Source: Ascidia mentula
Taxonomy: Eukaryota > Chordata > Ascidiacea > Phlebobranchia > Ascidiidae
DNA: 64,000 nt
Direction: 5' to 3'
Assembly (NCBI GenBank): GCA_947561715.1
Contig: OX387203.1
Coordinates: 11,284,001-11,348,000 of the forward strand
Positions 233 through 64,000 of the stretch are shown in pieces. Made by a program: the position numbers and the translations under genes. Numbering within the stretch: position 1 is the stretch's first letter; every line of letters begins with the position of its first letter. A model generated the notes under the pieces. The model did no database searches. It was not told the origin of the DNA and saw nothing but the letters and a program-made list of their open reading frames with translations.

Positions 233-233
233 C

Positions 234-356
234 ATGGACAACTTAATCCTCGCTGTAACACTGGAGTATCAGCGTTTTCCACTGTATAATAAAGCTTGTA
301 CTGAAAAAAATATTTTTCATCGAAAAGTCATATACTGCAAAATGGACAAGTGCTGA
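234..356 (+). CDS. Small ATG frame running from the flank into the first monomer (40 codons, doubtful)
   Basis: The ATG has a reasonable context (AACATGG) and follows the promoter-like boxes directly. The predicted peptide starts MDNLILAVTLEYQRFPLYNK, enters satellite sequence at about codon 8, ends ACTEK...CKMDKC, and stops at TGA in the first monomer. The arrangement LI-x-AV...PLYNK recalls the start of MADF (Adf-1/Myb-like) domains, but the match is short and most of it is satellite sequence. A GT at 255-256 could be a splice donor (GCT/GTAACA), which would make the array intronic. Other readings are a chance frame or a gene truncated by array expansion. No function is assigned. Confidence 0.2.
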   Translation: MDNLILAVTLEYQRFPLYNKACTEKNIFHRKVIYCKMDKC

Positions 357-397
357 AATCGCATAGTTACATACGTTGTGCAACCGCAAAAGCAATA
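261..397 (+). repeat. Boundary monomer (first full copy)
   Basis: This 137-bp copy is nearly canonical although it abuts unique DNA. It carries ACTGAAAAAAAT in place of ACTGCAAAAAAAT (one base shorter) and the TTTTTCATCG ending, the same variant pair seen in the monomers that begin each domain II copy (for example near 30,270, 33,480 and 36,685). Array edges usually hold diverged monomers, so a clean edge copy suggests a recent expansion or a breakpoint within homogenised satellite. Confidence 0.85.
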
Positions 398-535: not shown

Positions 536-562
536 CTGGAGTATCAGCGTTTTCCACTGTAT

Positions 563-572: not shown

Positions 573-580
573 GTACTGCA

Positions 581-729: not shown

Positions 730-3700
730 TTTATCGAAAGGTCATATACTGCAAAATGGACAAGTGCTGAAATCGCATAGTTACATACGTTGTGCAACCG
801 CAAAAGCAATACTGGAGTATCAGCGTTTTCCACTGTATAATAAAGCTTGTACTGCAAAAAATTATTTTTTGTCGAAAAGTCATACACTGCAAAATGGCCA
901 AGTGCTGAAATCTCATAGTTACATACGTTGTGCAACCGCAAAAGCAATACTGGAGTATCAGCGTTTTCCACTGTATAATAAAGCTTGTACTGCAAAAAAA
1001 TATTTTTTATCGAAAAGTCATATACTGCAAAATGGACAAGTGCTGAAATCGCATAGTTACATACGTTGTGCAACCGCAAAAGCAATACTGGAGTATCAGC
1101 GTTTTCCACTGTATAATAAAGCTTGTACTGCAAAAAAATATTTTTTGTCGAAAAGGCATACACTGCAAAATGGACAAGTGCTCAAATCTCATAGTTACAT
1201 ACGTTGTGCAACCGCAAAAGCAATACTGGAGTATCAGCGTTTTCCACTGTATAATAAAGCTTGTACTGCAAAAAAATATTTTTTATCGAAAAGTCATATA
1301 CTGCAAAATGGACAAGCGCTGAAATCGCATAGTTACATACGTTGGGCAACCGCAAAAGCAATACTGGAGTATCAGCGTTTTCCACTGTATAATAAAGCTT
1401 GTACTGAAAAAAAATATTTTTCATCGAAAAGTCATATACTGCAAAATGGACAAGTGCTGAAATTGCACAGTTACATACGTTGTGCAACCGCAAAAGCAAT
1501 ACTGGAGTATCAGCGTTTTCCACTGTATAATAAAGCTTGTACTGCAAAAAAATATTTTTCATCGAAAAGTCATATACTGCAAAATGGACAAGTGCTGAAA
1601 TCGCATAGTTACATACGTTGTGCAACCGCAAAAGCAATACCGGAGTATCAGCGTTTTCCACTGTATAATAAAGCTTGTACTGCAAAAAAATATTTTTTGT
1701 CGAAAAGTCATACACTGCAAAATGGACAAGTGCTGAAATCTCATAGTTACATACGTTGTGCAACCGCAAAAGCAATACTGGAGTATCAGCGTTTTCCACT
1801 GTATAATAAAGCTTGTACTGCAAAAAAATATTTTTTATCGAAAAGTCATATACTGCAAAATGGACAAGTGCTGAAATCGCATAGTTACATACGTTGTGCA
1901 ACCGCAAAAGCAATACTGGAGTATCAGCGTTTTCCACTGTATAATAAAGCTTGTACTGCAAAAAATTATTTTTTGTCGAAAAGTCATACACTGCAAAATG
2001 GACAAGTGCTGAAATCTCATAGTTACATACGTTGTGCAACCGCAAAAGCAATACTGGAGTATCAGCGTTTTCCACTGTATAATAAACCTTGTACTGCAAA
2101 AAAATATTTTTTATCGAAAAGTCATATATTGCAAAATGGACAAGTGCTGAAATCGCATAGTTACATACGTTGTGCAACCGCAAAAGCAATACTGGAGTAT
2201 CAGCGTTTTCCACTGTATAATAAAGCTTGTACTGCGAAAAAAATATTTTTTATCGAAAGGTCATATACTGCAAAATGGACAAGTGCTGAAATCGCATAGT
2301 TACATACGTTGTGCAACCGCAAAAGCAATACTGGAGTATCAGCGTTTTCCACTGTATAATAAAGCTTGTACTGCAAAAAAATATTTTTCATCGAAAAGTC
2401 ATATACTGCAAAATGGACAAGTGCTGAAATCGCATAGTTACATCCGTTGTGCAACCGCAAAAGCAATACTGGAGTATCAGCGTTTTCCACTGTATAATAA
2501 AGCTTGTACTGCAAAAATTATTTTTCTTCGAAAAGTCATACACTGCAAAATGGACAAGTGCTGAAATCTCATAGTTACATACGTTGTGCAACCGCAAAAA
2601 CAATACTGGAGTATCAGCGTTTTCCACTGTATAATAAAGCTTGTACTGCAAAAAAATATTTTTTATCGAAAAGTCATATACTGCAAAATGGACAAGTGCT
2701 GAAATCGCATAGTTACATACGTTGTGCAACCGCAAAAGCAATACTGGAGTATCAGCGTTTTCCACTGTATAATAAAGCTTGTACTGCAAAAAATTATTTT
2801 TTGTCGAAAAGTCATACACTGCAAAATGGACAAGTGCTGAAATCTCATAGTTACATACGTTGTGCAACCGCAAAAGCAATACTGGAGTATCAGCGTTTTC
2901 CACTGTATAATAAAGCTTGTACTGCAAAAATTATTTTTCTTCGAAAAGTCATACACTGCAAAATGGACAAGTGCTGAAATCTCATAGTTACATACGTTGT
3001 GCAACCGCAAAAACAATACTGGAGTATCAGCGTTTTCCACTGTATAATAAAGCTTGTACTGCAAAAAAATATTTTTTATCGAAAAGTCATATACTGCAAA
3101 ATGGACAAGTGCTGAAATCACATAGTTACATACGTTGTGCAACCGCAAAAGCAATACTGGAGTATCAGCGTTTTCCACTGTATAATAAAGCTTGTACTGC
3201 AAAAAATTATTTTTTATCGAAAAGTCATACACTGCAAAATGGACAAGTGCTGAAATCTCATAGTTACATACGTTGTGCAACCGCAAAAGCAATACTGGAG
3301 TATCAGCGTTTTCCACTGTATAATAAAGCTTGTACTGCAAAACAATATTTTTTATCGAAAAGTCATATACTGCAAAATGGACAAGTGCTGAAATCTCATA
3401 GTTACATACGTTGTGCAACCGCGAAAGCAATACTGGAGTATCAACGTTTTTCACTGTATAATAAAGCTTGTACTGCAAAAAATTTTTTTTTGTCGAAAAG
3501 TCATACACTGCAAAATGGACAAGTGCTGAAATCTCATAGTTACATACGTTGTGCAACCGCAAAAGCAATACTGGAGTATCAGCGTTTTCCACTATATAAT
3601 AAAGCTTGTACTGCAAAAAAATATTTTTCCTCGAAAAGTCATATACTGCAAAATGGACAAGTGCTGAAATCGCATAATTACATACGTTGTGCAACCGCAA

Positions 3701-5550
3701 AGGCAATATTGGAGTATCAGCGTTTTCCACTGTATAATAAAGCTTGTACTGCAAAAAAATATTTTTTATCGAAAGGTCATATACTGCAAAATGGACAAGT
3801 GCTGAAATCGCATAGTTACATACGTTGTGCAACCGCAAAAGCAATACTGGAGTATCAGCGTTTTCCACTGTATAATAAAGCTTGTACTGCAAAAAAATAT
3901 TTTTCATCGAAAAGTCATATACTGCAAAATGGACAAGTGCTGAAATCGCATAGTTACATACGTTGTGCAACCGCAAAAGCAATACTGGAGTATCAGCGTT
4001 TTCCACTGTATAATAAAGCTTGTACTACGAAAAAAATATTTTTTATCGAAAGGTCATATACTGCAAAATGGACAAGTGCTGAAATCGCATAGTTACATAC
4101 GTTGTGCAACCGCAAAAGCAATACTGGAGTATCAGCGTTTTCCACTGTATAATAAAGCTTGTACTGCAAAAAAATATTTTTCATCGAAAAGTCATATACT
4201 GCAAAACGGACAAGTGCTGAAATCGCATAGTTACATACGTTGTGCAACCGCAAAAGCAATACTGGAGTATCAGCGTTTTCCACTGTATAATAAAGCTTGT
4301 ACTGCAAAAATTATTTTTCTTCGAAAAGTCATACACTGCAAAATGGACAAGTGCTGAAATCTCATAGTTACATACGTTGTGCAACCGCAAAAACAATACT
4401 GGAGTATCAGCGTTTTCCACTGTATAATAAAGCTTGTACTGCAAAAAAATATTTTTTATCGAAAAGTCATATACTGCAAAATGGACAAGTGCTGAAATCG
4501 CATAGTTACATACGTTGTGCAACCGCAAAAGCAATACTGGAGTATCAGCGTTTTCCACTGTATAATAAAGCTTGTACTGCAAAAAATTATTTTTTGTCGA
4601 AAAGTCATACACTGCAAAATGGACAAGTGCTGAAATCTCATAGTTACATACGTTGTGCAACCGCAAAAGCAATACTGGAGTATCAGCGTTTTCCACTGTA
4701 TAATAAAGCTTGTACTGCAAAAATTATTTTTCTTCGAAAAGTCATACACTGCAAAATGGACAAGTGCTGAAATCTCATAGTTACATACGATGTGCAACCG
4801 CAAAAGCAATACTGGAGTATCAGCGTTTTCCACTGTATAATAAAGCTTGTACTGCAAAAAAATATTTTTTATCGAAAAGTCATATACTGCAAAATGGACA
4901 AGTGCTGAAATCGCATAGTTACATACGTTGTGCAACCGCAAAAGCAATACTGGAGTATCAGCGTTTTCCACTGTATAATAAAGCTTGTACTGCAAAAAAT
5001 TATTTTTTGTCGAAAAGTCATACACTGCAAAATGGACAAGTGCTGAAATCTCATAGTTACATACGTTGTGCAACCGCAAAAGCAATACTGGAGTATCAGC
5101 GTTTTCCACTGTATAATAAAGCTTGTACTGCAAGAAAATATTTTTTATCGAAAAGTCATATACTGCAAAATGGACAAGTGCTGAAATCTCATAGTTACAT
5201 ACGTTGTGCAACCGCAAAAGCAATACTGGAGTATCAACGTTTTTCACTGTATAATAAAGCTTGTACTGCAAAAAATATTTTTTTGTCGAAAAGTCATACA
5301 CTGCAAAATGGACAAGTGTTGAAATCTCATAGTTACATACGTTGTGCAACCGCAAAAGCAATACTGGAGTATCAGCGTTTTCCACTGTATAATAAAGCTT
5401 GTACTGCAAAAAACATATTTTTTATCGAAAGGTCATATACTGCAAAATGGACAAGTGCTGAAATCGCATAGCTACATACGTTGTGCAACCGCAAAAGCAA
5501 TACTGGTGTATCAGCGTTTTCCACTGTATAATAAAGCTTGTACTGCAAAA
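730..5550 (+). repeat. Domain I long block, copy 1
   Basis: This run of about 35 monomers reappears at 10,256-15,764. Diagnostic private variants match in both: GGCCAAGTGC (894 and 10,420), CGAAAAGGCATAC (about 1,148 and 10,674), GACAAGCGCTG (1,311 and 10,837), GTTGGGCAACC (1,342 and 10,868), AATACCGGAG (1,636 and 11,162) and AAACCTTG (2,085 and 11,611). The offset is 9,526 bp up to about 3.6 kb and 10,214 bp after that, because the second copy contains an extra 688-bp duplication. Confidence 0.85.
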
Positions 5551-7735
5551 AAATATTTTTCATCGAAAAGTCATATACTGCAAAATGGACAAGTGCTGAA
5601 ATCGCACAGTTACATACGTTGTGCAACCGCAAAAGCAATACTGGAGTATCAGCGTTTTCCACTGTATAATAAAGCTTGTACTGCAAAAAATTATTTTTCT
5701 TCGAAAAGTCATACACTGCAAAATGGACAAGTGCTGAAATCTCATAGTTACATACGTTGTGCAACCGCAAAAACAATACTGGAGTATCAGCGTTTTCTAC
5801 TGTATAATAAAGCTTGTACTGCAAAAAAATATTTTTTATCGAAAAGTCATATACTGCAAAATGGACAAGTGCTGAAATCGCATAGTTACATACGTTGTGC
5901 AACCGCAAAAGCAATACTGGAGTATCAGCGTTTTCCACTGTATAATAAAGCTTGTACTGCAAAAAATTATTTTTTGTCGAAAAGTCATACACTGCAAAAT
6001 GGACAAGTGCTGAAATCTCAAAGTTACATACGTTGTGCAACCGCAAAAGCAATACTGGAGTATCAGCGTTTTCCACTGTATAATAAAGCTTGTACTGCAA
6101 AAAAATATTTTTTATCGAAAAGTCATATACTGCAAAATGGACAAGTGCTGAAATCGCATAGTTACATACGTTGTGCAACCGCAAAAGCAATACTGGAGTA
6201 TCAGCGTTTTCCACTGTATAATTAAGCTTGTACTGCAAAAAATTTTTTTTTGTCGAAAAGTCATACACTGCAAAATGGACAAGTGCTGAAATCTCATAGT
6301 TACATACGTTGTGCAACCGCAAAAGCAATACTGGAGTATCAGCGTTTTCCACTGTATAATAAAGCTTGTACTGCAAAAAAATATTTTTTATCGAAAAGTC
6401 ATACACTGCAAAATGGACAAGTGCTGAAATCTCATAGTTACATACGTTGTGCAACCGCAAAAGCAATACTGGAGTATCAACGTTTTTCACTGTATAATAA
6501 AGCTTGTACTGCAAAAAAATTTTTTTTGTCGAAAAGTCATACACTGCAAAATGGACAAGTGCTGAAATCTCATAGTTACATACGTTGTGCAACCGCAAAA
6601 GCAATACTGGAGTATCAGCGTTTTCCACTGTATAATAAAGCTTGTACTGCAAAAAAATATTTTTTATCGAAAGGTCATATACTGCAAAATGGACAAGTGC
6701 TGAAATCGCATAGTTACATACGTTGTGCAACCGCAAAAGCAATACTGGAGTATCAGCGTTTTCCACTGTATAATAAAGCTTGTACTGCAAAAAAATATTT
6801 TTCATCGAAAAGTCATATACTGCAAAATGGACAAGTGCTGAAATCGCAAAGTTACATACGTTGTGCAACCGCAAAAGCAATACTGGAGTACCAGCGTTTT
6901 CCACTGTATAATAAAGCTTGTACTGCAAAAAAATATTTTTTATCGAAAAGTCATATACTGCAAAATGGACAAGTGCTGAAATCGCATATTTACATACGTT
7001 GTGCAACCGCAAAAGCAATACTGGAGTATCAGCGTTTTCCACTGTATAATAAAGCTTGTACTGCAAAAAATTATTTTTTGTCGAAAAGTCATACACTGCA
7101 AAATGGACAAGTGCTGAAATCTCAAAGTTACATACGTTGTGCAACCGCAAAAGCAATACTGGAGTATCAGCGTTTTCCACTGTATAATAAAGCTTGTACT
7201 GCAAAAAAATATTTTTTATCGAAAAGTCATATACTGCAAAATGGACAAGTGCTGAAATCGCATAGTTACATACGTTGTGCAACCGCAAAAGCAATACTGG
7301 AGTATCAGCGTTTTCCACTGTATAATAAAGCTTGTACTGCAAAAAATTTTTTTTTGTCGAAAAGTCATACACTGCAAAATGGACAAGTGCTGAAATCTCA
7401 TAGTTACATACGTTGTGCAACCGCAAAAGCAATACTGGAGTATCAGCGTTTTCCACTGTATAATAAAAAGCTTGTTCTGCAAAAAAATATTTTTTATCGA
7501 AAAGTCATATACTGCAAAATGGACAAGTGCTGAAATCTCATAGTTACATACGTTGTGCAACCGCAAAAGCAATACTGGAGCATCAGCGTTTTCCACTGTA
7601 TAATAAAGCTTGTACTGCAAAAAAATATTTTTTATCGAAAGGTCATATACTGCAAAATGGACAAGTGCTGAAATCGCATAGTTACATACGTTGTGCAACC
7701 GCAAAAGCAATACTGGAGTATCAGCGTTTTCCACT
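5110..7735 (+). repeat. 2,625-bp higher-order repeat, copy 1
   Basis: Nineteen monomers plus 3 bases. The block begins near the CAAGAAAATATT variant (5,131) and includes the TAATTAAGCTT copy (about 6,219), GCATATTTAC (about 6,982), the 3-base insertion TAATAAAAAGCTTG (about 7,461) and the GGAGCATCAG monomer (about 7,578). The next 2.6 kb repeats all of these in the same order. Confidence 0.85.
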
Positions 7736-10360
7736 GTATAATAAAGCTTGTACTGCAAGAAAATATTTTTTATCGAAAAGTCATATACTGCAAAATGGAC
7801 AAGTGCTGAAATCTCATAGTTACATACGTTGTGCAACCGCAAAAGCAATACTGGAGTATCAACGTTTTTCACTGTATAATAAAGCTTGTACTGCAAAAAA
7901 TATTTTTTTGTCGAAAAGTCATACACTGCAAAATGGACAAGTGTTGAAATCTCATAGTTACATACGTTGTGCAACCGCAAAAGCAATACTGGAGTATCAG
8001 CGTTTTCCACTGTATAATAAAGCTTGTACTGCAAAAAACATATTTTTTATCGAAAGGTCATATACTGCAAAATGGACAAGTGCTGAAATCGCATAGCTAC
8101 ATACGTTGTGCAACCGCAAAAGCAATACTGGTGTATCAGCGTTTTCCACTGTATAATAAAGCTTGTACTGCAAAAAAATATTTTTCATCGAAAAGTCATA
8201 TACTGCAAAATGGACAAGTGCTGAAATCGCACAGTTACATACGTTGTGCAACCGCAAAAGCAATACTGGAGTATCAGCGTTTTCCACTGTATAATAAAGC
8301 TTGTACTGCAAAAAATTATTTTTCTTCGAAAAGTCATACACTGCAAAATGGACAAGTGCTGAAATCTCATAGTTACATACGTTGTGCAACCGCAAAAACA
8401 ATACTGGAGTATCAGCGTTTTCTACTGTATAATAAAGCTTGTACTGCAAAAAAATATTTTTTATCGAAAAGTCATATACTGCAAAATGGACAAGTGCTGA
8501 AATCGCATAGTTACATACGTTGTGCAACCGCAAAAGCAATACTGGAGTATCAGCGTTTTCCACTGTATAATAAAGCTTGTACTGCAAAAAATTATTTTTT
8601 GTCGAAAAGTCATACACTGCAAAATGGACAAGTGCTGAAATCTCAAAGTTACATACGTTGTGCAACCGCAAAAGCAATACTGGAGTATCAGCGTTTTCCA
8701 CTGTATAATAAAGCTTGTACTGCAAAAAAATATTTTTTATCGAAAAGTCATATACTGCAAAATGGACAAGTGCTGAAATCGCATAGTTACATACGTTGTG
8801 CAACCGCAAAAGCAATACTGGAGTATCAGCGTTTTCCACTGTATAATTAAGCTTGTACTGCAAAAAATTTTTTTTTGTCGAAAAGTCATACACTGCAAAA
8901 TGGACAAGTGCTGAAATCTCATAGTTACATACGTTGTGCAACCGCAAAAGCAATACTGGAGTATCAGCGTTTTCCACTGTATAATAAAGCTTGTACTGCA
9001 AAAAAATATTTTTTATCGAAAAGTCATACACTGCAAAATGGACAAGTGCTGAAATCTCATAGTTACATACGTTGTGCAACCGCAAAAGCAATACTGGAGT
9101 ATCAACGTTTTTCACTGTATAATAAAGCTTGTACTGCAAAAAAATTTTTTTTGTCGAAAAGTCATACACTGCAAAATGGACAAGTGCTGAAATCTCATAG
9201 TTACATACGTTGTGCAACCGCAAAAGCAATACTGGAGTATCAGCGTTTTCCACTGTATAATAAAGCTTGTACTGCAAAAAAATATTTTTTATCGAAAGGT
9301 CATATACTGCAAAATGGACAAGTGCTGAAATCGCATAGTTACATACGTTGTGCAACCGCAAAAGCAATACTGGAGTATCAGCGTTTTCCACTGTATAATA
9401 AAGCTTGTACTGCAAAAAAATATTTTTCATCGAAAAGTCATATACTGCAAAATGGACAAGTGCTGAAATCGCAAAGTTACATACGTTGTGCAACCGCAAA
9501 AGCAATACTGGAGTACCAGCGTTTTCCACTGTATAATAAAGCTTGTACTGCAAAAAAATATTTTTTATCGAAAAGTCATATACTGCAAAATGGACAAGTG
9601 CTGAAATCGCATATTTACATACGTTGTGCAACCGCAAAAGCAATACTGGAGTATCAGCGTTTTCCACTGTATAATAAAGCTTGTACTGCAAAAAATTATT
9701 TTTTGTCGAAAAGTCATACACTGCAAAATGGACAAGTGCTGAAATCTCAAAGTTACATACGTTGTGCAACCGCAAAAGCAATACTGGAGTATCAGCGTTT
9801 TCCACTGTATAATAAAGCTTGTACTGCAAAAAAATATTTTTTATCGAAAAGTCATATACTGCAAAATGGACAAGTGCTGAAATCGCATAGTTACATACGT
9901 TGTGCAACCGCAAAAGCAATACTGGAGTATCAGCGTTTTCCACTGTATAATAAAGCTTGTACTGCAAAAAATTTTTTTTTGTCGAAAAGTCATACACTGC
10001 AAAATGGACAAGTGCTGAAATCTCATAGTTACATACGTTGTGCAACCGCAAAAGCAATACTGGAGTATCAGCGTTTTCCACTGTATAATAAAAAGCTTGT
10101 TCTGCAAAAAAATATTTTTTATCGAAAAGTCATATACTGCAAAATGGACAAGTGCTGAAATCTCATAGTTACATACGTTGTGCAACCGCAAAAGCAATAC
10201 TGGAGCATCAGCGTTTTCCACTGTATAATAAAGCTTGTACTGCAAAAAAATATTTTTTATCGAAAGGTCATATACTGCAAAATGGACAAGTGCTGAAATC
10301 GCATAGTTACATACGTTGTGCAACCGCAAAAGCAATACTGGAGTATCAGCGTTTTCCACT
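7736..10360 (+). repeat. 2,625-bp higher-order repeat, copy 2
   Basis: Each landmark of the preceding block recurs exactly 2,625 bases later (for example CAAGAAAATATT near 7,756 and TAATAAAAAGCTTG near 10,086). By eye the two copies look identical over nearly the whole length, including silent-looking single changes, so the duplication is very recent or the assembly duplicated the block. A third, nearly complete copy lies at about 19.8-21.74 kb. Confidence 0.85.
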
Positions 10361-15764: not shown

Positions 15765-17463
15765 AAATATTTTTCTTCGAAAAGTCATACACTGCAAAAT
15801 GGACAAGTGCTGAAATCTCATAGTTACATACGTTGTGCAACCGCAAAAACAATACTGGAGTATCAGCGTTTTCTACTGTATAATAAAGCTTGTACTGCAA
15901 AAAAATATTTTTTATCGAAAAGTCATATACTGCAAAATGGACAAGTGCTGAAATCGCATAGTTACATACGTTGTGCAACCGCAAAAGCAATACTGGAGTA
16001 TCAGCGTTTTCCACTGTATAATAAAGCTTGTACTGCAAAAAATTATTTTTTGTCGAAAAGTCATACACTGCAAAATGGACAAGTGCTGAAATCTCAAAGT
16101 TACATACGTTGTGCAACCGCAAAAGCAATACTGGAGTATCAGCGTTTTCCACTGTATAATAAAGCTTGTACTTCAAAAAAATATTTTTTATCGAAAAGTC
16201 ATATACTGCAAAATGGACAAGTGCTGAAATCGCATAGTTACATACGTTGTGCAACCGCAAAAGCAATACTGGAGTATCAGCGTTTTCCACTGTATAATTA
16301 AGCTTGTACTGCAAAAAATTTTTTTTTGTCGAAAAGTCATACACTGCAAAATGGACAAGTGCTGAAATCTCATAGTTACATACGTTGTGCAACCGCAAAA
16401 GCAATACTGGAGTATCAGCGTTTTCCACTGTATAATAAAGCTTGTACTGCAAAAAAATATTTTTTATCGAAAAGTCATACACTGCAAAATGGACAAGTGC
16501 TGAAATCTCATAGTTACATACGTTGTGCAACCGCAAAAGCAATACTGGAGTATCAACGTTTTTCACTGTATAATAAAGCTTGTACTGAAAAAAATTTTTT
16601 TTGTCGAAAAGTCATACACTGCAAAATGGACAAGTGCTGAAATCTCATAGTTACATACGTTGTGCAACCGCAAAAGCAATACTGGAGTATCAGCGTTTTC
16701 CACTGTATAATAAAGCTTGTACTGCAAAAAAATATTTTTTATCGAAAGGTCATATACTGCAAAATGGACAAGTGCTGAAATCGCATAGTTACATACGTTG
16801 TGCAACCGCAAAAGCAATACTGGAGTATCAGCGTTTTCCACTGTATAATAAAGCTTGTACTGCAAAAAAATATTTTTCATCGAAAAGTCATATACTGCAA
16901 AATGGACAAGTGCTGAAATCGCAAAGTTACATACGTTGTGCAACCGCAAAAGCAATACTGGAGTACCAGCGTTTTCCACTGTATAATAAAGCTTGTACTG
17001 CAAAAAAATATTTTTTATCGAAAAGTCATATACTGCAAAATGGACAAGTGCTGAAATCGCATATTTACATACGTTGTGCAACCGCAAAAGCAATACTGGA
17101 GTATCAGCGTTTTCCACTGTATAATAAAGCTTGTACTGCAAAAAAATATTTTTTATCGAAAAGTCATATACTGCAAAATGGACAAGTGCTGAAATCGCAT
17201 AGTTACATACGTTGTGCAACCGCAAAAGCAATACTGGAGTATCAGCGTTTTCCACTGTATAATAAAGCTTGTACTGCAAAAAATTTTTTTTTGTCGAAAA
17301 GTCATACACTGCAAAATGGACAAGTGCTGAAATCTCATAGTTACATACGTTGTGCAACCGCAAAAGCAATACTGGAGTATCAGCGTTTTCCACTGTATAA
17401 TAAAAAGCTTGTCCTGCAAAAAAATATTTTTTATCGAAAAGTCATATACTGCAAAATGGACAA
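15765..17463 (+). repeat. Shortened copy of the 5.6-7.5 kb block
   Basis: This continues the duplication of the left part of domain I but lacks one monomer near 15.77 kb (a C/D-class junction, with the TTTTTCATCG monomer missing) and one B monomer near 17.1 kb. It ends with the same 3-base insertion (TAATAAAAAGCTTG, about 17,401). It has private changes such as TACTTCAAAAAAA (about 16,172) and ACTGAAAAAAATTT (about 16,585). Confidence 0.75.
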
Positions 17464-20400
17464 GTGCTGAAATCTCATAGTTACATACGTTGTGCAACCG
17501 CAAAAGCAATACTGGAGCATCAGCGTTTTCCACTGTATGATAAAGCTTGTACTGAAAAAAATTATTTTTCATCGAAAAGTCATATACTGCAAAATGGACA
17601 AGTGCTGAAATTGCACAGTTACATACGTTGTGCAACCGCAAAAGCAATGCTGGAGTATCAGCGTTTTCCACTATATAATAAAGCTTGTACTGCAAAAAAA
17701 TATTTTTCATCGAAAAATCATATACTGCAAAATGGACAAGTGCTGAAATCGCTCAGTTACATACGTTGTGCAAACGCAAAAGCAATACTGGAGTACCAGC
17801 GTTTTCCACTGTATAATAAAGCTTGTACTGAAAAAAATTATTTTTTATCGAAAAGTCATACACTGCAACATGGACAAGTGCTAAAATCTCATAGTTACAT
17901 ACGTTGTGCAACCGCAAAAGCAATACTGGAGTATCAGCGTTTTCCACTGTATAATAAAGCTTGTACTGCAAAAAATTATTTTTTGTCGAAAAGTCATACA
18001 CTGCAAAATGGACAAGTGCTGAAATCTCATAGTTACATACGTTGTGCAACCGCAAAAGCAATACTGGAGTATCAGCGTTTTCCACTGTATAATAAAGCTT
18101 GTACTGCAAAAAAATATTTTTCCTCGAAAAGTCATATACTGCAAAATGGACAAGTGCTGAAATCGCATAATTACATACGTTGTGCAACCGCAAAGGCAAT
18201 ACTGGAGTATCAGCGTTTTCCACTGTATAATAAAGCTTGTACTGCAAAAAAATATTTTTTGTCGAAAAGTCATACACTGCAAAATGGACAAGTGCTGAAG
18301 TCTCATAGTTACATACGTTGTGCAACCGCAAAAGCAATACTGGAGTATCAGCGTTTTCCACTGTATAATAAAGCTTATACTGCAAAAAAATATTTTTTAT
18401 CGAAAAGTCATATACTGCAAAATGGACAAGTGCTGAAATCGCATAGTTACATACGTTGTGCACCCGCAAAAGCAATACTGGAGTATCAGCGTTTTCCACT
18501 GTATAATAAAGCTTGTACTGCAAAAAAATATTTTTCATCGAAAAGTCATATACTGCAAAATGGACAAGTGCTGAAATCGCATAGTTACATACGTTGTGCA
18601 ACCGCAAAAGCAATACTGGAGTATCAGCGTTTTCCACTGTATAATAAAGCTTGTACTGCAAAAAATATTTTTCATCGAAAAATCATATACTGCAAAATGG
18701 ACAAGTGCTGAAATCGCATAGTTACATACGTTGTGCAACCGCAAAAGCAATACTGGAGTATCAGCGTTTTCCACTGTATAATAAAGCTTGTACTGCAAAA
18801 AATTATTTTTTGTCGAAAAGTCATACACTGCAAAATGGACAAGTGCTGAAATCTCATAGTTACATACGTTGTGCAACCGCAAAAGCAATACTGGAGTATC
18901 AGCGTTTTCCACTGTATAATAAAGCTTGTACTGCAAAAAATATTTTTCATCGAAAAATCATATACTGCAAAATGGACAAGTGCTGAAATCGCTCAGTTAC
19001 ATACGTTGTGCAATCGCAAAAGCAATACTGGAGTATCAGCGTTTTCCACTGTATAATAAAGCTTGTACTGCAAAAAAATATTTTTCATCGAAAAGTCATA
19101 TACTGCAAAATGGACAAGTGCTGAAATCGCATAGTTACATACGTTGTGCAACCGCAAAAGCAATACTGGAGTATCAGCGTTTTCCACTGTGTAATAAAGC
19201 TTGTACTGCAAAAAATTATTTTTTGTCGAAAAGTCATACACTGCAAAATGGACAAGTGCTGAAATCGCATAGTTACATACGTTGTGCAACCGCAAAAGCA
19301 ATACTGGAGCATCAGCGTTTTCCACTGTATGATAAAGCTTGTACTGAAAAAAATTATTTTTCATCGAAAAGTCATATACTGCAAAATGGACAAGTGCTGA
19401 AATTGCACAGTTACATACGTTGTGCAACCGCAAAAGCAATGCTGGAGTATCAGCGTTTTCCACTATATAATAAAGCTTGTACTGCAAAAAAATATTTTTC
19501 ATCGAAAAATCATATACTGCAAAATGGACAAGTGCTGAAATCGCTCAGTTACATACGTTGTGCAAACGCAAAAGCAATACTGGAGTACCAGCGTTTTCCA
19601 CTGTATAATAAAGCTTGTACTGAAAAAAATTATTTTTTATCGAAAAGTCATACACTGCAAAATGGACAAGTGCTAAAATCTCATAGTTACATACGTTATG
19701 CAACCGCAAAAGCAATACTGGAGTATCAGCGTTTTCCACTGTATAATAAAGCTTGTACTGCAAAAAATTTTTTTTTGTCGAAAAGTCATACACTGCAAAA
19801 TGGACAAGTGCTGAAATCGCACAGTTACATACGTTGTGCAACCGCAAAAGCAATACTGGAGTATCAGCGTTTTCCACTGTATAATAAAGCTTGTACTGCA
19901 AAAAATTATTTTTCTTCGAAAAGTCATACACTGCAAAATGGACAAGTGCTGAAATCTCATAGTTACATACGTTGTGCAACCGCAAAAACAATACTGGAGT
20001 ATCAGCGTTTTCTACTGTATAATAAAGCTTGTACTGCAAAAAAATATTTTTTATCGAAAAGTCATATACTGCAAAATGGACAAGTGCTGAAATCGCATAG
20101 TTACATACGTTGTGCAACCGCAAAAGCAATACTGGAGTATCAGCGTTTTCCACTGTATAATAAAGCTTGTACTGCAAAAAATTATTTTTTGTCGAAAAGT
20201 CATACACTGCAAAATGGACAAGTGCTGAAATCTCAAAGTTACATACGTTGTGCAACCGCAAAAGCAATACTGGAGTATCAGCGTTTTCCACTGTATAATA
20301 AAGCTTGTACTGCAAAAAAATATTTTTTATCGAAAAGTCATATACTGCAAAATGGACAAGTGCTGAAATCGCATAGTTACATACGTTGTGCAACCGCAAA

Positions 20401-21741
20401 AGCAATACTGGAGTATCAGCGTTTTCCACTGTATAATTAAGCTTGTACTGCAAAAAATTTTTTTTTGTCGAAAAGTCATACACTGCAAAATGGACAAGTG
20501 CTGAAATCTCATAGTTACATACGTTGTGCAACCGCAAAAGCAATACTGGAGTATCAGCGTTTTCCACTGTATAATAAAGCTTGTACTGCAAAAAAATATT
20601 TTTTATCGAAAAGTCATACACTGCAAAATGGACAAGTGCTGAAATCTCATAGTTACATACGTTGTGCAACCGCAAAAGCAATACTGGAGTATCAACGTTT
20701 TTCACTGTATAATAAAGCTTGTACTGCAAAAAAATTTTTTTTGTCGAAAAGTCATACACTGCAAAATGGACAAGTGCTGAAATCTCATAGTTACATACGT
20801 TGTGCAACCGCAAAAGCAATACTGGAGTATCAGCGTTTTCCACTGTATAATAAAGCTTGTACTGCAAAAAAATATTTTTTATCGAAAGGTCATATACTGC
20901 AAAATGGACAAGTGCTGAAATCGCATAGTTACATACGTTGTGCAACCGCAAAAGCAATACTGGAGTATCAGCGTTTTCCACTGTATAATAAAGCTTGTAC
21001 TGCAAAAAAATATTTTTCATCGAAAAGTCATATACTGCAAAATGGACAAGTGCTGAAATCGCAAAGTTACATACGTTGTGCAACCGCAAAAGCAATACTG
21101 GAGTACCAGCGTTTTCCACTGTATAATAAAGCTTGTACTGCAAAAAAATATTTTTTATCGAAAAGTCATATACTGCAAAATGGACAAGTGCTGAAATCGC
21201 ATATTTACATACGTTGTGCAACCGCAAAAGCAATACTGGAGTATCAGCGTTTTCCACTGTATAATAAAGCTTGTACTGCAAAAAATTATTTTTTGTCGAA
21301 AAGTCATACACTGCAAAATGGACAAGTGCTGAAATCTCAAAGTTACATACGTTGTGCAACCGCAAAAGCAATACTGGAGTATCAGCGTTTTCCACTGTAT
21401 AATAAAGCTTGTACTGCAAAAAAATATTTTTTATCGAAAAGTCATATACTGCAAAATGGACAAGTGCTGAAATCGCATAGTTACATACGTTGTGCAACCG
21501 CAAAAGCAATACTGGAGTATCAGCGTTTTCCACTGTATAATAAAGCTTGTACTGCAAAAAATTTTTTTTTGTCGAAAAGTCATACACTGCAAAATGGACA
21601 AGTGCTGAAATCTCATAGTTACATACGTTGTGCAACCGCAAAAGCAATACTGGAGTATCAGCGTTTTCCACTGTATAATAAAAAGCTTGTCCTGCAAAAA
21701 AATATTTTTTATCGAAAAGTCATATACTGCAAAATGGACAA
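17464..21741 (+). repeat. 4,278-bp (31-monomer) higher-order repeat, copy 1
   Basis: The first part (17.46-19.78 kb) carries markers GTATGATAAAG, AAAGCAATGCTGG, CGAAAAATCATA, GCAAACGCAAAAG, CTGCAACATGGAC, GCTTATACTGC and GTGCACCCGC. The rest (about 19.8-21.74 kb) is a third copy of the 2,625-bp block. Landmarks recur exactly 4,278 bases later, which is 31 x 138 with no net indel. Confidence 0.8.
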
Positions 21742-24090
21742 GTGCTGAAATCTCATAGTTACATACGTTGTGCAACCGCAAAAGCAATACTGGAGCATCA
21801 GCGTTTTCCACTGTATGATAAAGCTTGTACTGAAAAAAATTATTTTTCATCGAAAAGTCATATACTGCAAAATGGACAAGTGCTGAAATTGCACAGTTAC
21901 ATACGTTGTGCAACCGCAAAAGCAATGCTGGAGTATCAGCGTTTTCCACTATATAATAAAGCTTGTACTGCAAAAAAATATTTTTCATCGAAAAATCATA
22001 TACTGCAAAATGGACAAGTGCTGAAATCGCTCAGTTACATACGTTGTGCAAACGCAAAAGCAATACTGGAGTACCAGCGTTTTCCACTGTATAATAAAGC
22101 TTGTACTGAAAAAAATTATTTTTTATCGAAAAGTCATACACTGCAACATGGACAAGTGCTAAAATCTCATAGTTACATACGTTGTGCAACCGCAAAAGCA
22201 ATACTGGAGTATCAGCGTTTTCCACTGTATAATAAAGCTTGTACTGCAAAAAATTATTTTTTGTCGAAAAGTCATACACTGCAAAATGGACAAGTGCTGA
22301 AATCTCATAGTTACATACGTTGTGCAACCGCAAAAGCAATACTGGAGTATCAGCGTTTTCCACTGTATAATAAAGCTTGTACTGCAAAAAAATATTTTTC
22401 CTCGAAAAGTCATATACTGCAAAATGGACAAGTGCTGAAATCGCATAATTACATACGTTGTGCAACCGCAAAGGCAATACTGGAGTATCAGCGTTTTCCA
22501 CTGTATAATAAAGCTTGTACTGCAAAAAATTATTTTTTGTCGAAAAGTCATACACTGCAAAATGGACAAGTGCTGAAGTCTCATAGTTACATACGTTGTG
22601 CAACCGCAAAAGCAATACTGGAGTATCAGCGTTTTCCACTGTATAATAAAGCTTATACTGCAAAAAAATATTTTTTATCGAAAAGTCATATACTGCAAAA
22701 TGGACAAGTGCTGAAATCGCATAGTTACATACGTTGTGCACCCGCAAAAGCAATACTGGAGTATCAGCGTTTTCCACTGTATAATAAAGCTTGTACTGCA
22801 AAAAAATATTTTTCATCGAAAAGTCATATACTGCAAAATGGACAAGTGCTGAAATCGCATAGTTACATACGTTGTGCAACCGCAAAAGCAATACTGGAGT
22901 ATCAGCGTTTTCCACTGTATAATAAAGCTTGTACTGCAAAAAATATTTTTCATCGAAAAATCATATACTGCAAAATGGACAAGTGCTGAAATCTCATAGT
23001 TACATACGTTGTGCAACCGCAAAAGCAATACTGGAGTATCAGCGTTTTCCACTGTATAATAAAGCTTGTACTGCAAAAAATTATTTTTTGTCGAAAAGTC
23101 ATACACTGCAAAATGGACAAGTGCTGAAATCTCATAGTTACATACGTTGTGCAACCGCAAAAGCAATACTGGAGTATCAGCGTTTTCCACTGTATAATAA
23201 AGCTTGTACTGCAAAAAATATTTTTCATCGAAAAATCATATACTGCAAAATGGACAAGTGCTGAAATCGCTCAGTTACATACGTTGTGCAACCGCAAAAG
23301 CAATACTGGAGTATCAGCGTTTTCCACTGTATAATAAAGCTTGTACTGCAAAAAAATATTTTTCATCGAAAAGTCATATACTGCAAAATGGACAAGTGCT
23401 GAAATCGCATAGTTACATACGTTGTGCAACCGCAAAAGCAATACTGGAGTATCAGCGTTTTCCACTGTGTAATAAAGCTTGTACTGCAAAAAATTATTTT
23501 TTGTCGAAAAGTCATACACTGCAAAATGGACAAGTGCTGAAATCGCATAGTTACATACGTTGTGCAACCGCAAAAGCAATACTGGAGCATCAGCGTTTTC
23601 CACTGTATGATAAAGCTTGTACTGAAAAAAATTATTTTTCATCGAAAAGTCATATACTGCAAAATGGACAAGTGCTGAAATTGCACAGTTACATACGTTG
23701 TGCAACCGCAAAAGCAATGCTGGAGTATCAGCGTTTTCCACTATATAATAAAGCTTGTACTGCAAAAAAATATTTTTCATCGAAAAATCATATACTGCAA
23801 AATGGACAAGTGCTGAAATCGCTCAGTTACATACGTTGTGCAAACGCAAAAGCAATACTGGAGTACCAGCGTTTTCCACTGTATAATAAAGCTTGTACTG
23901 AAAAAAATTATTTTTTATCGAAAAGTCATACACTGCAAAATGGACAAGTGCTAAAATCTCATAGTTACATACGTTATGCAACCGCAAAAGCAATACTGGA
24001 GTATCAGCGTTTTCCACTGTATAATAAAGCTTGTACTGCAAAAAATTTTTTTTTGTCGAAAAGTCATACACTGCAAAATGGACAAGTGCT
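21742..24090 (+). repeat. 4,278-bp higher-order repeat, copy 2 (partial)
   Basis: Repeats the markers of 17,464-19,780 in order, then departs near 24.1 kb, where copy 1 continues into the 2,625-bp block and this copy continues into the 1,517-bp modules. A few sites differ, for example CTCAT for CGCAT near 22,990. The same marker series appears again at about 46.8-48.4 kb. Confidence 0.75.
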
Positions 24091-29200: not shown

Positions 29201-30323
29201 ATACACTGCAAAATGGACAAGTGCTGAAATCTCATAGTTACATACGTTGTGCAACCGCAAAAGCAATACTGGAGTATCAGCGTTTTCCACTGTATAATAA
29301 AGCTTGTACTGCAAAAAAATATTTTTTATCGAAAAGTCATATACTGCAAAATGGACAAGTGCTGAAATTGTATAGTTACATACGTTGTGCAACCGCAAAA
29401 GCAATACTGGAGTATCAGCGTTTTCCACTGTATAATAAAGCTTGTACTGCAAAAAAATATTTTTCATCGAAAAGTCATATACTGCAAAATGGACAAGTGC
29501 TGAAATCGCATAGTTACATACGTTGTGCAACCGCAAAAGCAATACTGGAGTATCAGCGTTTTCCACTGTATAATAAAGCTTGTACTGCAAAAAATTATTT
29601 TTTGTCGAAAAGTCATACACTGCAAAATGGACAAGTGCTGAAATCTCATAGTTACATACGTTGTGCAACCGCAAAAGCAATACTGGAGTATCAGCGTTTT
29701 CCACTGTATAATAAAGCTTGTACTGCAAAAAATTATTTTTTGTCGAAAAGTCATACACTGCAAAATGGACAAGTGCTGAAATCTCATAGTTACATACGTT
29801 GTGCAACCGCAAAAGCAATACTGGAGTATCAGCGTTTTCCACTGTATAATAAAGCTTGTACTGCAAAAAAATATTTTTCATCGAAAAGTCATATACTGCA
29901 AAATGGACAAGTGCTGAAATCGCATAGTTACATACGTTGTGCAACCGCAAAAGCAATACTGGAGTATCAGCGTTTTCCACTGTATAATAAAGCATGTACT
30001 GCAAAAAATTATTTTTTGTCGAAAAGTCATACACTGCAAAATGGACAAGTGCTGAAATCTCATAGTTACATACGTTGTGCAACCGCAAAAGCAATACTGG
30101 AGTATCAGGGTTTTCCACTGTATAATAAAGCTTGTACAGCAAAAAAATATTTTTTATCGAAAAGTCATATACTGCAAAATGGACAAGTGCTGAAATCACA
30201 TAGTTACATACGTTGTGCAGCCGCAAAAGCAATACTGGAGTATCAGCGTTTTCCACTGTATAATAAAGCTTGTACTGAAAAAAATATTTTTCATCGAAAA
30301 GTCATATACTGCAAAATGGACAA
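26292..30323 (+). repeat. Domain II higher-order repeat, copy 1 (long form, 4,032 bp)
   Basis: The copy starts with two successive monomers that lost the HindIII site (AAGCATGT near 26,371 and 26,511). It contains the 30-bp insertion at 27,073-27,102 with a TTCG junction, the GACGAAAAGGCATA and GTTGGGCAACC markers, and the module with AAATTGTATAG (about 29,365) missing from the short forms. A private TTTTTAAACG change lies near 26,534. Its length is 29 monomers plus 30 bases. Confidence 0.85.
27073..27102 (+). repeat. 30-bp partial-monomer insertion, domain II copy 1
   Basis: After CTTGTACTT the sequence jumps back to CGTTTTCCACTGTATAATAA and repeats to CTTGTGCTGC, a direct duplication of about 30 bases inside one monomer. 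The junction reads ACTTCG. Since 30 is a multiple of three it shifts no frame, but it resets the 138-bp phase. Confidence 0.9.
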
Positions 30324-33300: not shown

Positions 33301-33527
33301 CTGGAGTATCAGCGTTTTCCACTGTATAATAAAGCTTGTACTGCAAAAAATTATTTTTTGTCGAAAAGTCATATACTGCAAAATGGACAAGTGCTGAAAT
33401 CTCATAGTTACATACGTTGTGCAACCGCAAAAGCAATACTGGAGTATCAGCGTTTTCCACTGTATAATAAAGCTTGTACTGAAAAAAATATTTTTCATCG
33501 AAAAGTCATATACTGCAAAATGGACAA
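30324..33527 (+). repeat. Domain II higher-order repeat, copy 2 (short form, 3,204 bp)
   Basis: Same start pair of HindIII-negative monomers (30,401 and 30,541) and the same TTCG-type 30-bp insertion (31,105-31,134). It has one monomer more than copy 1 near 31.8-31.97 kb (with GAGTATCTGCG) and seven fewer at its end, hence 23 monomers plus 30 bases. Private changes include GGAGTATTAGC (about 31,374) and GCAATAAATTA (about 31,687). Confidence 0.85.
31105..31134 (+). repeat. 30-bp partial-monomer insertion, domain II copy 2
   Basis: Same duplication and the same ACTTCG junction as in copy 1, 4,032 bases later, showing that it was inherited with the higher-order unit. Confidence 0.9.
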
Positions 33528-36500: not shown

Positions 36501-36731
36501 AATACTGGAGTATCAGCGTTTTCCACTGTATAATAAAGCTTGTACTGCAAAAAATTATTTTTTGTCGAAAAGTCATACACTGCAAAATGGACAAGTGCTG
36601 AAATCTCATAGTTACATACGTTGTGCAACCGCAAAAGCAATACTGGAGTATCAGCGTTTTCCACTGTATAATAAAGCTTGTACTGAAAAAAATATTTTTC
36701 ATCGAAAAGTCATATACTGCAAAATGGACAA
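33528..36731 (+). repeat. Domain II higher-order repeat, copy 3 (short form, 3,204 bp)
   Basis: Landmarks recur exactly 3,204 bases after those of copy 2. It differs by AAAAAATTTTTTTTATCG in its first monomer (about 33,620), TGTACGGCAAA (about 33,890) and a TGCG rather than TTCG junction at the 30-bp insertion (34,309-34,338). Those changes are shared with copy 4. Confidence 0.85.
34309..34338 (+). repeat. 30-bp partial-monomer insertion, domain II copy 3
   Basis: Same duplication, but the junction reads ACTGCG, one base different from copies 1 and 2. It lies 3,204 bases after the previous one. Confidence 0.9.
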
Positions 36732-39700: not shown

Positions 39701-40763
39701 AAGCAATACTGGAGTATCAGCGTTTTCCACTGTATAATAAAGCTTGTACTGCAAAAAATTATTTTTTGTCGAAAAGTCATACACTGCAAAATGGACAAGT
39801 GCTGAAATCTCATAGTTACATACGTTGTGCAACCGCAAAAGCAATACTGGAGTATCAGCGTTTTCCACTGTATAATAAAGCTTGTACTGCAAAAAAATAT
39901 TTTTTATCGAAAAGTCATATACTGCAAAATGGACAAGTGCTGAAATTGTATAGTTACATACGTTGTGCAACCGCAAAAGCAATACTGGAGTATCAGCGTT
40001 TTCCACTGTATAATAAAGCTTGTTCTGCAAAAAAATATTTTTCATCGAAAAGTCATATACTGCAAAATGGACAAGTGCTGAAATCGCATAGTTACATACG
40101 TTGTGCAACCGCAAAAGCAATACTGGAGTATCAGCGTTTTCCACTGTATAATAAAGCTTGTACTGCAAAAAATTATTTTTTGTCGAAAAGTCATACACTG
40201 CAAAATGGACAAGTGCTGAAATCTCATACTTACATACGTTGTGCAACCGCAAAAGCAATACTGGAGTATCAGCGTTTTCCACTGTATAATAAAGCTTGTA
40301 CTGCAAAAAAATATTTTTCATCGAAAAGTCATATACTGCAAAATGGACAAGTGCTGAAATCGCATAGTTACATACGTTGTGCAACCGCAAAAGCAATACT
40401 GGAGTATCAGCGTTTTCCACTGTATAATAAAGCTTGTACTGCAAAAAATTATTTTTTGTCGAAAAGTCATACACTGCAAAATGGACAAGTGCTGAAATCT
40501 CATAGTTACATACGTTGTGCAACCGCAAAAGCAATACTGGAGTATCAGCGTTTTCCACTGTATAATAAAGCTTGTACAGCAAAAAAATATTTTTTATCGA
40601 AAAGTCATATACTGCAAAATGGACAAGTGCTGAAATCACATAGTTACATACGTTGTGCAGCCGCAAAAGCAATACTGGAGTATCAGCGTTTTCCACTGTA
40701 TAATAAAGCTTGTACTGAAAAAAATATTTTTCATCGAAAAGTCATATACTGCAAAATGGACAA
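36732..40763 (+). repeat. Domain II higher-order repeat, copy 4 (long form, 4,032 bp)
   Basis: Follows copy 3 for its first part (TGCG junction, insertion at 37,513-37,542) and has the long-form end with AAATTGTATAG (about 39,946). It equals copy 1 in length only because one extra monomer near 38.2-38.4 kb is balanced by one missing B monomer near 40.2 kb. Private change: GCTTGTTCTGC near 40,020. Confidence 0.85.
37513..37542 (+). repeat. 30-bp partial-monomer insertion, domain II copy 4
   Basis: Same duplication and ACTGCG junction as copy 3, again 3,204 bases further on. Copies 3 and 4 are therefore closest relatives for this part. Confidence 0.9.
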
Positions 40764-61300: not shown

Positions 61301-64000
61301 ACTGCAAAATGGACAAGTGCTGAAATCGCATAGTTACATACGTTGTGCAACCGCAAAAGCAATACTGGAGTATCAGCGTTTTCCACTGTATAATAAAGCT
61401 TGTACTGCAAAAAAATATTTTTTGTCGAAAAGTCATATACTGCAAAATGGACAAGTGCTGAAATCGCATAGTTACATACGTTGTGCAACTGCAAAAGCAA
61501 TACTGGAGTATCAGCGTTTTCCACTGTATAATAAAGCTTGTACTGCAAAAAATTATTTTTTGTCGAAAAGTCATACACTGCAAAATGGACAAGTGCTGAA
61601 ATCTCAAAGTTACATACGTTGTGCAACCGCAAAAGCAATACTGGAGTATCAGCGTTTTCCACTGTATAATAAAGCTTGTACTGCAAAAAAATATTTTTTA
61701 TCGAAAAGTCATATACTGCAAAATGGACAAGTGCTGAAATCGCATAGTTACATACGTTGTGCAACCGCAAAAGCAATACTGGAGTATCAGCGTTTTCCAC
61801 TGTATAATAAAGCTTGTACTGCAAAAAATTATTTTTTGTCGAAAAGTCATACACTGCAAAATGGACAAGTGCTGAAATCTCATAGTTACATACGTTGTGC
61901 AACCGCAAAAACAATACTGGAGTATCAGCGTTTTCCACTGTATAATAAAGCTTGTACTGCAAAAAAATATTTTTTGTCGAAAAGTCATATACTGCAAAAT
62001 GGACAAGTGCTGAAATCGCATAGTTACATACGTTGTGCAACCGCAAAAGCAATACTGGAGTATCAGCGTTTTCCACTGTATAATAAAGCTTGTACTGCAA
62101 AAAATTATTTTTTGTCGAAAAGTCATACACTGCAAAATGGACAAGTGCTGAAATCGCATAGTTACATACGTTGTGCAACCGCAAAAGCAATACTGGAGTA
62201 TCAGCGTTTTCCACTGTATAATAAAGCTTGTACTGCAAAAAATTATTTTTTGTCGAAAAGTCATACACTGCAAAATGGACAAGTGCTGAAATCTCAAAGT
62301 TACATACGTTGTGCAACCGCAAAAGCAATACTGGAGTATCAGCGTTTTCCACTGTATAATAAAGCTTGTACTGCAAAAAAATATTTTTTATCGAAAAGTC
62401 ATATACTGCAAAATGGACAAGTGCTGAAATCGCATAGTTACATAGGTTGTGCAACCGCAAAAGCAATACTGGAGTATCAGCGTTTTCCACTGTATAATAA
62501 AGCTTGTACTGCAAAAAATTATTTTTTGTCGAAAAGTCATACACTGCAAAATGGACAAGTGCTGAAATCTCATAGTTACATACGTTGTGCAACCGCAAAA
62601 GCAATACTGGAGTATCAGCGTTTTCCACTGTATAATAAAGCTTGTACTGCAAAAAAATATTTTTTATCGAAAAGTCATATACTGCAAAATGGACAAGTGC
62701 TGAAATCGCATAGTTACATACGTTGTGCAACCGCAAAAGCAATACTGGAGTATCAGCGTTTTCCACTGTATAATAAAGCTTGTACTGCAAAAAAATATTT
62801 TTTGTCGAAAAGTCATATACTGCAAAATGGACAAGTGCTGAAATCTCATAGTTACATACGTTGTGCAACCGCAAAAGCAATACTGGAGTATCAGCGTTTT
62901 CCACTGTATAATAAAGCTTGTACTGCAAAAAAATATTTTTTATCGAAAAGTCATATACTGCAAAATGGACAAGTGCTGAAATCGCATAGTTACATACGTT
63001 GTGCAACCGCAAAAGCAATACTGGAGTATCAGCGTTTTCCACTGTATAATAAAGCTTGTACTGCAAAAAAATATTTTTTATCGAAAAGTCATATACTGCA
63101 AAATGGACAAGTGCTGAAATCGCATAGTTACATACGTTGTGCAACCGCAAAAGCAATACTGGAGTATCAGCGTTTTCCACTGTATAATAAAGCTTGTACT
63201 GCAAAAAAATATTTTTTGTCGAAAAGTCATATACTGCAAAATGGACAAGTGCTGAAATCGCATAGTTACATACGTTGTGCAACCGCAAAAGCAATACTGG
63301 AGTATCAGCGTTTTCCACTGTATAATAAAGCTTGTTCTGCAAAAAATTATTTTTCTTCGAAAAGTCATACACTGCAAAATGGACAAGTGCTGAAATCTCA
63401 TAGTTACATACGTTGTGCAACCGCAAAAACAATACTGGAGTATCAGCGTTTTCCACTGTATAATAAAGCTTGTACTGCAAAAAAATATTTTTTGTCGAAA
63501 AGTCATATACTGCAAAATGGACAAGTGCTGAAATCGCATAGTTACATACGTTGTGCAACCGCAAAAGCAATACTGGAGTATCAGCGTTTTCCACTGTATA
63601 ATAAAGCTTGTACTGCAAAAAAATATTTTTTGTCGAAAAGTGATACACTGCAAAATGGACAAGTGCTGAAATCTCAAAGTTACATACGTTGTGCAACCGC
63701 AAAAGCAATACTGGAGTATCAGCGTTTTCCACTGTATAATAAAGCTTGTACTGCAAAAAAATATTTTTTATCGAAAAGTCATATACTGCAAAATGGACAA
63801 GTGCTGAAATCGCATAGTTACATACGTTGTGCAACCGCAAAAGCAATACTGGAGTATCAGCGTTTTCCACTGTATAATAAAGCTTGTACTGCGAAAAAAA
63901 TATTTTTTATCGAAAGGTCATATACTGCAAAATGGACAAGTGCTGAAATCGCATAGTTACATACGTTGTGCAACCGCATAAGCAATACTGGAGTATCAGC
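58366..64000 (+). repeat. Domain III module 2' (at least 40 monomers, cut by the window edge)
   Basis: Second version of module 2 with the same markers (CCACCGTATAATAAAG near 61,108, GTGCAACTGC near 61,488, AAAAGTGATACACTG near 63,638). It has one or two extra monomers, for example a second B monomer near 62.2 kb. It contains the longest stop-free stretches of the window: 1,817 codons on the plus strand (58,503-63,956) and 1,827 on the minus strand (58,387-63,870). I regard both as by-products of the monomer length. The last monomers at the edge are normal, so the array continues. Confidence 0.8.

Follow-up and report, generated by a model that had tools for sequence, protein, structure and literature searches.

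A 138-bp satellite array on chromosome 7 of Ascidia mentula as a candidate ascidian centromere

We analyzed a 64,000-nucleotide stretch of the Ascidia mentula genome (C71:11284001-11348000, hereafter the window) and read it, from its position and form, as part of a candidate centromeric satellite of chromosome 7, a reading to which we assign a probability of roughly 0.84. Its 138-bp satellite is very probably the centromere DNA of A. mentula, a putative assignment made from sequence. The first-pass annotation had proposed a centromere-type or heterochromatic array undergoing homogenization. That proposal is supported by the genome map, which shows a single cluster shorter than 1 Mb for each of the nine chromosomes, and its homogenizing character by a homogeneous chromosome 7 core, more diverged edges (two sampled), and at least one chromosome-private variant.

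Within the window the satellite forms a long head-to-tail array of a single monomer family, as is characteristic of regional centromeric satellites. TRF returned seven rows, one of which spans 260-64000 with a period of 138 bp (461.1 copies, 94% matches); the other six are short and all nested within it. A scan with an anchor 21-mer, tolerating up to 3 substitutions, gave 461 matches on the plus strand and 0 on the minus strand, in agreement with the approximately 461 same-orientation monomers first claimed. Anchors are spaced 138 bp apart in 402 of 460 intervals, the remainder being 137 bp (38 intervals), 139 bp (8), 140 bp (8), and 169 bp (4). The 169-bp intervals lie at 27000, 31032, 34236, and 37440, separated by 4,032, 3,204, and 3,204 bp, and in two of the four TRF reported a 31-bp tandem duplication. 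Mean pairwise monomer identity is 0.963 (5000 random pairs from the window), and 159 of 460 monomers are distinct sequences. The array runs on beyond the right end of the window. It had been described as uninterrupted from position 257: it is indeed one continuous array to 64000, but it starts at 261, positions 1-260 being the end of a long terminal repeat (LTR), and "uninterrupted" is true of the window, which contains no N, but not of the chromosome 7 cluster as a whole, which includes a 200-N run and a change of orientation as well as transposons.

Table 1. Features of the window (window coordinates) and extents of the satellite clusters (chromosome coordinates, Mb)
Feature	Position	Strand	Basis or detail
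BEL/Pao LTR end, right-hand (260 of 413 bp)	1..260	-	LTR match, termini, target-site duplication
Target-site duplication CTGGA, right copy, within monomer	261..265	+	L013 junctions
Satellite array, ~461 head-to-tail 138-bp monomers	261..64000	+	TRF, anchor spacing, neighboring locus L014
20-monomer block	803..3561, repeated at 10329-13087	+	lag 9,526 bp, 3 differences
19-monomer, 2,625-bp block, two tandem copies	5079..10328	+	5079-7703 and 7704-10328 identical in every base
19-monomer block	17087-19708, repeated at 21365-23986 (span 17087..23986)	+	lag 4,278 bp, 3 differences
4,032-bp block	26331-27879 versus 30363-31911	+	block comparison
Span with four 169-bp anchor intervals	26904..37682	+	anchor spacing, TRF
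23-monomer, 3,204-bp block, three tandem copies	30226..39837	+	8, 2, 8 pairwise differences
Satellite cluster, chromosome 1	12.46-13.32
Satellite cluster, chromosome 2	17.81-18.09
Satellite cluster, chromosome 3	11.90-12.80
Satellite cluster, chromosome 4	11.72-12.40
Satellite cluster, chromosome 5	11.69-12.45
Satellite cluster, chromosome 6	7.84-8.19
Satellite cluster, chromosome 7	11.24-11.87
Satellite cluster, chromosome 8	10.05-10.71
Satellite cluster, chromosome 9	6.74-7.24

Monomers in the window belong to two linked classes, A and B, which differ at diagnostic sites 60, 69, 83, and 111 and were called by four-site majority. The linkage claimed at first pass is borne out at sites 83 and 111 (r2 = 0.694, compared with a maximum of 0.035 in 2000 permutations). 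Classes switch at 293 of 459 junctions, more than the 222.3 ± 10.3 expected and more than in any shuffle (0 of 10,000 reached 293). The A/B dimers also described at first pass stand only as alternation above chance, and they are irregular, with 125 A-A and 41 B-B same-class junctions. Mean identity rises by only 0.5 percentage points between lag 1 (0.959) and lag 2 (0.964) and is nearly flat over lags 1 to 30 (0.959 to 0.965), leading us to reject a regular dimeric or alpha-type higher-order repeat (HOR); we found no regular, tandemly repeated multimeric unit of the alpha-satellite kind. All of the multikilobase blocks described earlier (2,625, 3,204/4,032, and 4,278 bp and approximately 10 kb, the last at lags of 9,526, 10,214, and 10,208 bp) were recovered by monomer comparison. 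The longest strict run of matching monomers, with at most one difference per monomer, is 37, whereas shuffling the monomer order 20 times gave longest runs of 3 to 6. A looser count that tolerates single breaks places 410 of 460 monomers in duplicated blocks of eight or more, the shuffles applying to the strict run, and block lengths range from 8 to 46 monomers at many different lags. The same-class junctions and the small lag-2 gain together imply a nested but irregular structure, and the "three-level higher-order structure" of the first-pass annotation is correct as to nested blocks and A/B classes but overstates their regularity. The array is an irregular patchwork of duplications over a loose A/B alternation, with no fixed higher-order repeat.

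Near-identical blocks also raise the question of assembly. We regard it as very improbable that the structure is partly an artefact in which the assembler multiplied or misordered copies of the 2,625-bp and 3,204-bp blocks. The letter-for-letter identity of the 2,625-bp copies would fit such an error, as would the 200-N run in the chromosome 7 cluster. However, the assembly was built from HiFi reads at 74-fold coverage with a QV of 64.9, according to passages of the genome note (PMC11109543), and most blocks carry substitutions and overlap at differing lags. The satellite is moreover present on all nine chromosomes, and therefore the array as such is no artefact.

The LTR end at the start of the window belongs to a BEL/Pao retrotransposon of 6,758 bp (approximately C71:11277503-11284260) that lies mostly to the left of the window and is inserted in the array. 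Window positions 1-259 match both of its LTRs at 100%, the partner LTR lying 6,345 bp upstream. The LTRs (413/413 bp) show 0 differences, have the termini TGTAACA...TGTAACA, and are bounded by the 5-bp target-site duplication (TSD) CTGGA. On its minus strand the element has a 1914-aa open reading frame. Peptidase_A17, DUF1759, DUF5641, and Integrase_H2C2 exceed their Pfam cut-offs, and RVT_1 (20.6 versus 29.6) and rve (23.2 versus 32.6) fall below theirs. Paired LTRs, TG...CA ends, a 5-bp TSD, and Pao-type domains together place it in BEL/Pao. Three of six two-LTR copies lie in satellite and three outside, and we reject the idea that the element is array specific; CTGGA is the target at two of the three satellite insertions, and outside copies L022 and L024 show no matching target duplication. 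The LTR pairs of the three satellite-borne copies are identical (0 differences over 413, 409, and 413 positions, respectively), and the three nonsatellite copies have 3, 5, and 41 differing LTR columns. Across these six copies, the identical LTRs of the satellite-borne elements indicate that insertion into the arrays was apparently recent or that the arrays turn over rapidly.

Beyond the window, we searched an assembly of 195.84 Mb in 79 contigs, of which C71 is chromosome 7 (19.87 Mb). Each of the nine chromosome-size contigs, which together make up 98.1% of the assembly, contains a satellite cluster of less than 1 Mb, at relative positions of 0.38 to 0.58 on eight chromosomes and 0.90 on chromosome 2. 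One cluster per chromosome, from a sample of positions and not a census, is the distribution of a regional centromeric satellite. Cluster positions (Table 1) combine the homology-search matches listed, three rare-variant searches, and sampled loci, with spans partly sampled; on chromosome 3, for example, sampling between 12.06 and 12.73 Mb took in one transposon flank. The chromosome 7 cluster covers at least 11.24-11.865 Mb, insertions included. An exact 21-mer of the monomer, TACATACGTTGTGCAACCGCA, has 12,341 forward and 18,358 reverse copies in the assembly (30,699 in all), and its reversed (read-backwards) control has 0 matches there; among the approximately 100 matches listed, all are on chromosome 1. 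The 21-mer is exact in 398 of 460 window monomers and in 112 of 183 sampled monomers from the other eight chromosomes, and scaling from its count puts the satellite at approximately 4.9 to 6.9 Mb, or 2.5 to 3.5% of the assembly. The satellite is also present on at least one unplaced contig, C68 (L050).

Monomers scattered genome-wide as part of a transposon had been named at the outset as the pattern that would speak against a centromere-type array. No such pattern was seen: three rare monomer variants gave 92, 53, and 37 matches, and all 182 lie inside the nine clusters. On this basis we reject carriage of the satellite by a dispersed transposon; a lone stray monomer lies at 65 kb on chromosome 9 (L047), between two pieces of transposon.

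Satellite orientation switches on chromosomes 6, 7, and 9. Switch points were located at C71:11828211-11828254 and C73:7221481-7221493, the chromosome 7 junction containing scrambled short monomer pieces. The 200-N run within the chromosome 7 array (C71:11602249-11602448) is probably a scaffold gap and makes cluster lengths approximate.

Monomers from each of the nine chromosomes fit one 138-column alignment, with mean identities of 0.89 to 0.97 within and between samples; chromosome 7 was sampled deeply and the other eight chromosomes at 17 to 42 monomers each. The chromosome 7 core is homogenized, and the two edges read, those of chromosomes 7 and 1, are more diverged. The outermost four monomers on chromosome 7 have 0.84 to 0.87 identity to the consensus, and the outer 7.5 kb of its left edge averages 0.902, compared with 0.97 to 0.98 from 18 kb inward; the chromosome 1 edge sample averages 0.925 against the chromosome 7 consensus. 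Chromosomes also differ from one another: monomer position 53 is C in the chromosome 7 and chromosome 6 consensus and A in the other seven, and the variant TACATACTTCGTGCAACCGCA is private to chromosome 2 (37 of 37 matches).

Other sequences interrupt both edges. Decayed monomers at the chromosome 7 edge contain a 442-bp insert (L009:3240-3681, C71:11241240-11241681) with ends TAGTGATG/CATCACTA and, by eye, an apparent 8-bp target duplication, ATACGTTG; we take it to resemble a hAT-type MITE. The left edge of the chromosome 1 array (L028:4000-7600, C1:12460000-12463600) is broken, again by eye, by retroelement-like coding sequence, inside which there is a 283-bp satellite island.

A DNA transposon also resides in the satellite clusters and is found almost only there. 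A 3,457-bp element with the 8-bp terminal inverted repeat (TIR) CCCAGTCA/TGACTGGG interrupts the chromosome 7 satellite at L016:2652-6108 (C71:11502652-11506108). Its termini are unlike those of CACTA elements, and it contains a subthreshold match (E = 0.0059) to DUF4218, a domain known from CACTA-type transposons; members of the CMC (CACTA-Mirage-Chapaev) group are recognized by a 2- to 4-bp TSD, TIRs, and a CMC transposase. When 40 of 106 candidates on chromosome 7 were scored with a 1-kb query, at least 15 copies proved identical to one another across it, and 8 of the 14 steps between them measure 4,284 bp. Searching for a terminal 23-mer of the element with one mismatch tolerated gave 95 matches, 18 of them on C68 and 77 on the chromosomes. 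Among these 77 chromosomal termini, 54 lie inside the satellite extents defined by monomer matches, 21 are no more than 0.5 Mb outside, and 2 are distant; many copies stem from array amplification, and 75 of 77 should therefore not be counted as 75 independent events. The 18 termini on C68 (89,688 bp, unplaced) are one-base variants, many at 4,365-bp steps, and because the one flank read there is satellite, this contig is probably an unplaced piece of centromere.

Flanks were read for 14 copies of the element (that in L016 plus 13), and 12 adjoin satellite. The two exceptions are a copy in the chromosome 1 cluster (L051), which adjoins sequence of the element itself, and a copy at 16.5 Mb on chromosome 6 (L048), which adjoins nonsatellite DNA; the distant copy at 65 kb on chromosome 9 adjoins the stray monomer, with another piece of the element on the monomer's far side. 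The 12 satellite junctions fall at only three places in the monomer, at positions 40-41 (four junctions), 83 (two), and 121-123 (six), and both orientations are found at 40-41 and at 121-123. Two orientations at two sites imply several independent insertions and argue that residence in the array does not reflect one insertion copied along it. The sole copy with both ends read (L016) is flanked by a 2-bp duplication, AA, and AT is common to the facing ends of the two neighboring element pieces in L047. From the three preferred monomer sites, the insertion in both orientations, and the presence on all nine chromosomes and almost nowhere else, we put forward only tentatively the suggestion that this 3.45-kb transposon with CCCAGTCA TIRs might be specialized on an animal centromere; within the array it would be amplified together with the satellite into composite repeats of 4 to 6 kb.

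The same element bears on where kinetochore chromatin would sit. A CENP-A domain is often smaller than the satellite around it, and with this precedent the 138-bp family could be a pericentromeric heterochromatin satellite, the CENP-A core lying on other sequence such as a transposon-rich island in or beside the array. Chromosome 7 has such an island: satellite makes up just 1.5 kb or so of the 10 kb in L016, transposon copies extend from 11.463 to 11.537 Mb, and the 3.45-kb element, like the satellite, has a single cluster on each chromosome. We nevertheless consider this placement unlikely; the inner chromosome 7 array is more homogeneous than the sampled edge, which is the pattern expected at an active centromere, and we continue to favor the satellite itself as the putative centromere DNA.

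We also looked for kinetochore proteins in the assembly. A CENP-C cupin-domain match on chromosome 4 scores 35 bits against a Pfam cut-off of 29 (E = 2.7e-6) and spans positions 34-85 of the 85-position profile; 4 of 14 control genomes give matches to this profile, none above the cut-off. A match above the cut-off means that the usual inner-kinetochore protein is probably encoded, and A. mentula likely has an ordinary inner kinetochore.

The CENP-T profile gave 35 matches, of which 33 lie in tandem histone-fold units and are apparently histone genes, and the best match (43.6 bits, chromosome 6) contains a stop. At C52:12952786-13059134 and on unplaced contig C53, histone-fold frames recur in tandem units mostly about 4.7 kb apart. 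These units, whose CENP-T matches are just over the cut-off, are apparently a histone gene cluster, and approximately 0.15 Mb separates it from the final satellite sample of chromosome 3.

Several known motifs were sought in the satellite. Neither strand of the window contains an exact CENP-B box, TTCGNNNNANNCGGG (0 matches), and the monomer consensus reaches at best 5 of its 9 fixed bases; with no exact box in the window, we reject a CENP-B-box satellite. Passages of a published account place this box in the satellites of only some mammalian clades (PMC8997354). The monomer contains the dyads AAAAAATATTTTTT and ATACTGGAGTAT, and despite these we reject a strong hairpin or cruciform character, since its computed DNA fold is no stronger than that of shuffled sequences (z = +1.0 to +1.1). 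Known RNA genes are likewise rejected, with 0 Rfam matches at gathering thresholds in the window and in L016, and 0 tRNAs were found in L016.

We propose that each array would serve as a substrate for CENP-A chromatin and a kinetochore that includes CENP-C, without a CENP-B box. Unequal exchange or break-induced replication would repeatedly duplicate blocks of approximately 10 to 46 monomers within the array, which could yield the A/B alternation, the 2.6- to 10-kb blocks, and the composite repeats containing transposable elements. Older monomers would be displaced to the edges and decay there, and transposons would insert into the array and then be amplified or purged along with it. The nested blocks and the core/edge pattern fit the standard account of satellite centromeres, described in passages of PMC8997354, in which block duplication in the core displaces older repeats outward.

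Centromeric satellites of such size and form are already a known kind. Like human alpha satellite, as passages of PMC8997354 describe it, the 138-bp array has two linked classes with a tendency to alternate, near-identical multimonomer blocks, and disordered edges. It differs in that its monomers are approximately 96% alike, whereas alpha monomers are 50 to 70% alike, and in having no CENP-B box, no regular HOR period, and irregular block lengths. The Arabidopsis centromere repeat combines high monomer identity, irregular HORs, and LTR elements within the array, and on these features would be the closer likeness. Large continuous pericentromeric satellite domains in the Drosophila ananassae subgroup have higher-order repeats reminiscent of those in human and Arabidopsis, according to the abstract of PMC11917152; these flies and Arabidopsis are hosts unrelated to A. 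mentula and are compared here by description, not by sequence. Among tunicates, putative centromeric repeats are reported in Botryllus schlosseri (PMC12448946), where the passages at hand describe one chromosome region and map no family per chromosome, and this comparison too is by description. That paper is the one tunicate report of putative centromeric repeats noticed in a literature search of incomplete coverage, and tunicate centromere DNA seems to be scarcely described. The same search, which took in no repeat database, found no published record of the 138-bp satellite, and in a term search of the genome note the words centromere, satellite, repeat, and karyotype were all absent (PMC11109543).

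The nine single-place clusters constitute a candidate ascidian centromere map. The satellite could be used as a probe in FISH and in CENP-A mapping, and, tunicates being the sister group of vertebrates, it could serve as an outgroup when the evolution of centromere satellites in vertebrates is studied. With the array-confined DNA transposon, one can ask whether centromeres are possible targets of cut-and-paste elements; if its specialization is real, the element would both feed on and reshape the centromere, the 138-bp family would be the first ascidian centromere to have been placed on the full chromosome set, and A. mentula centromeres would have a resident cut-and-paste element in place of the usual retroelement.
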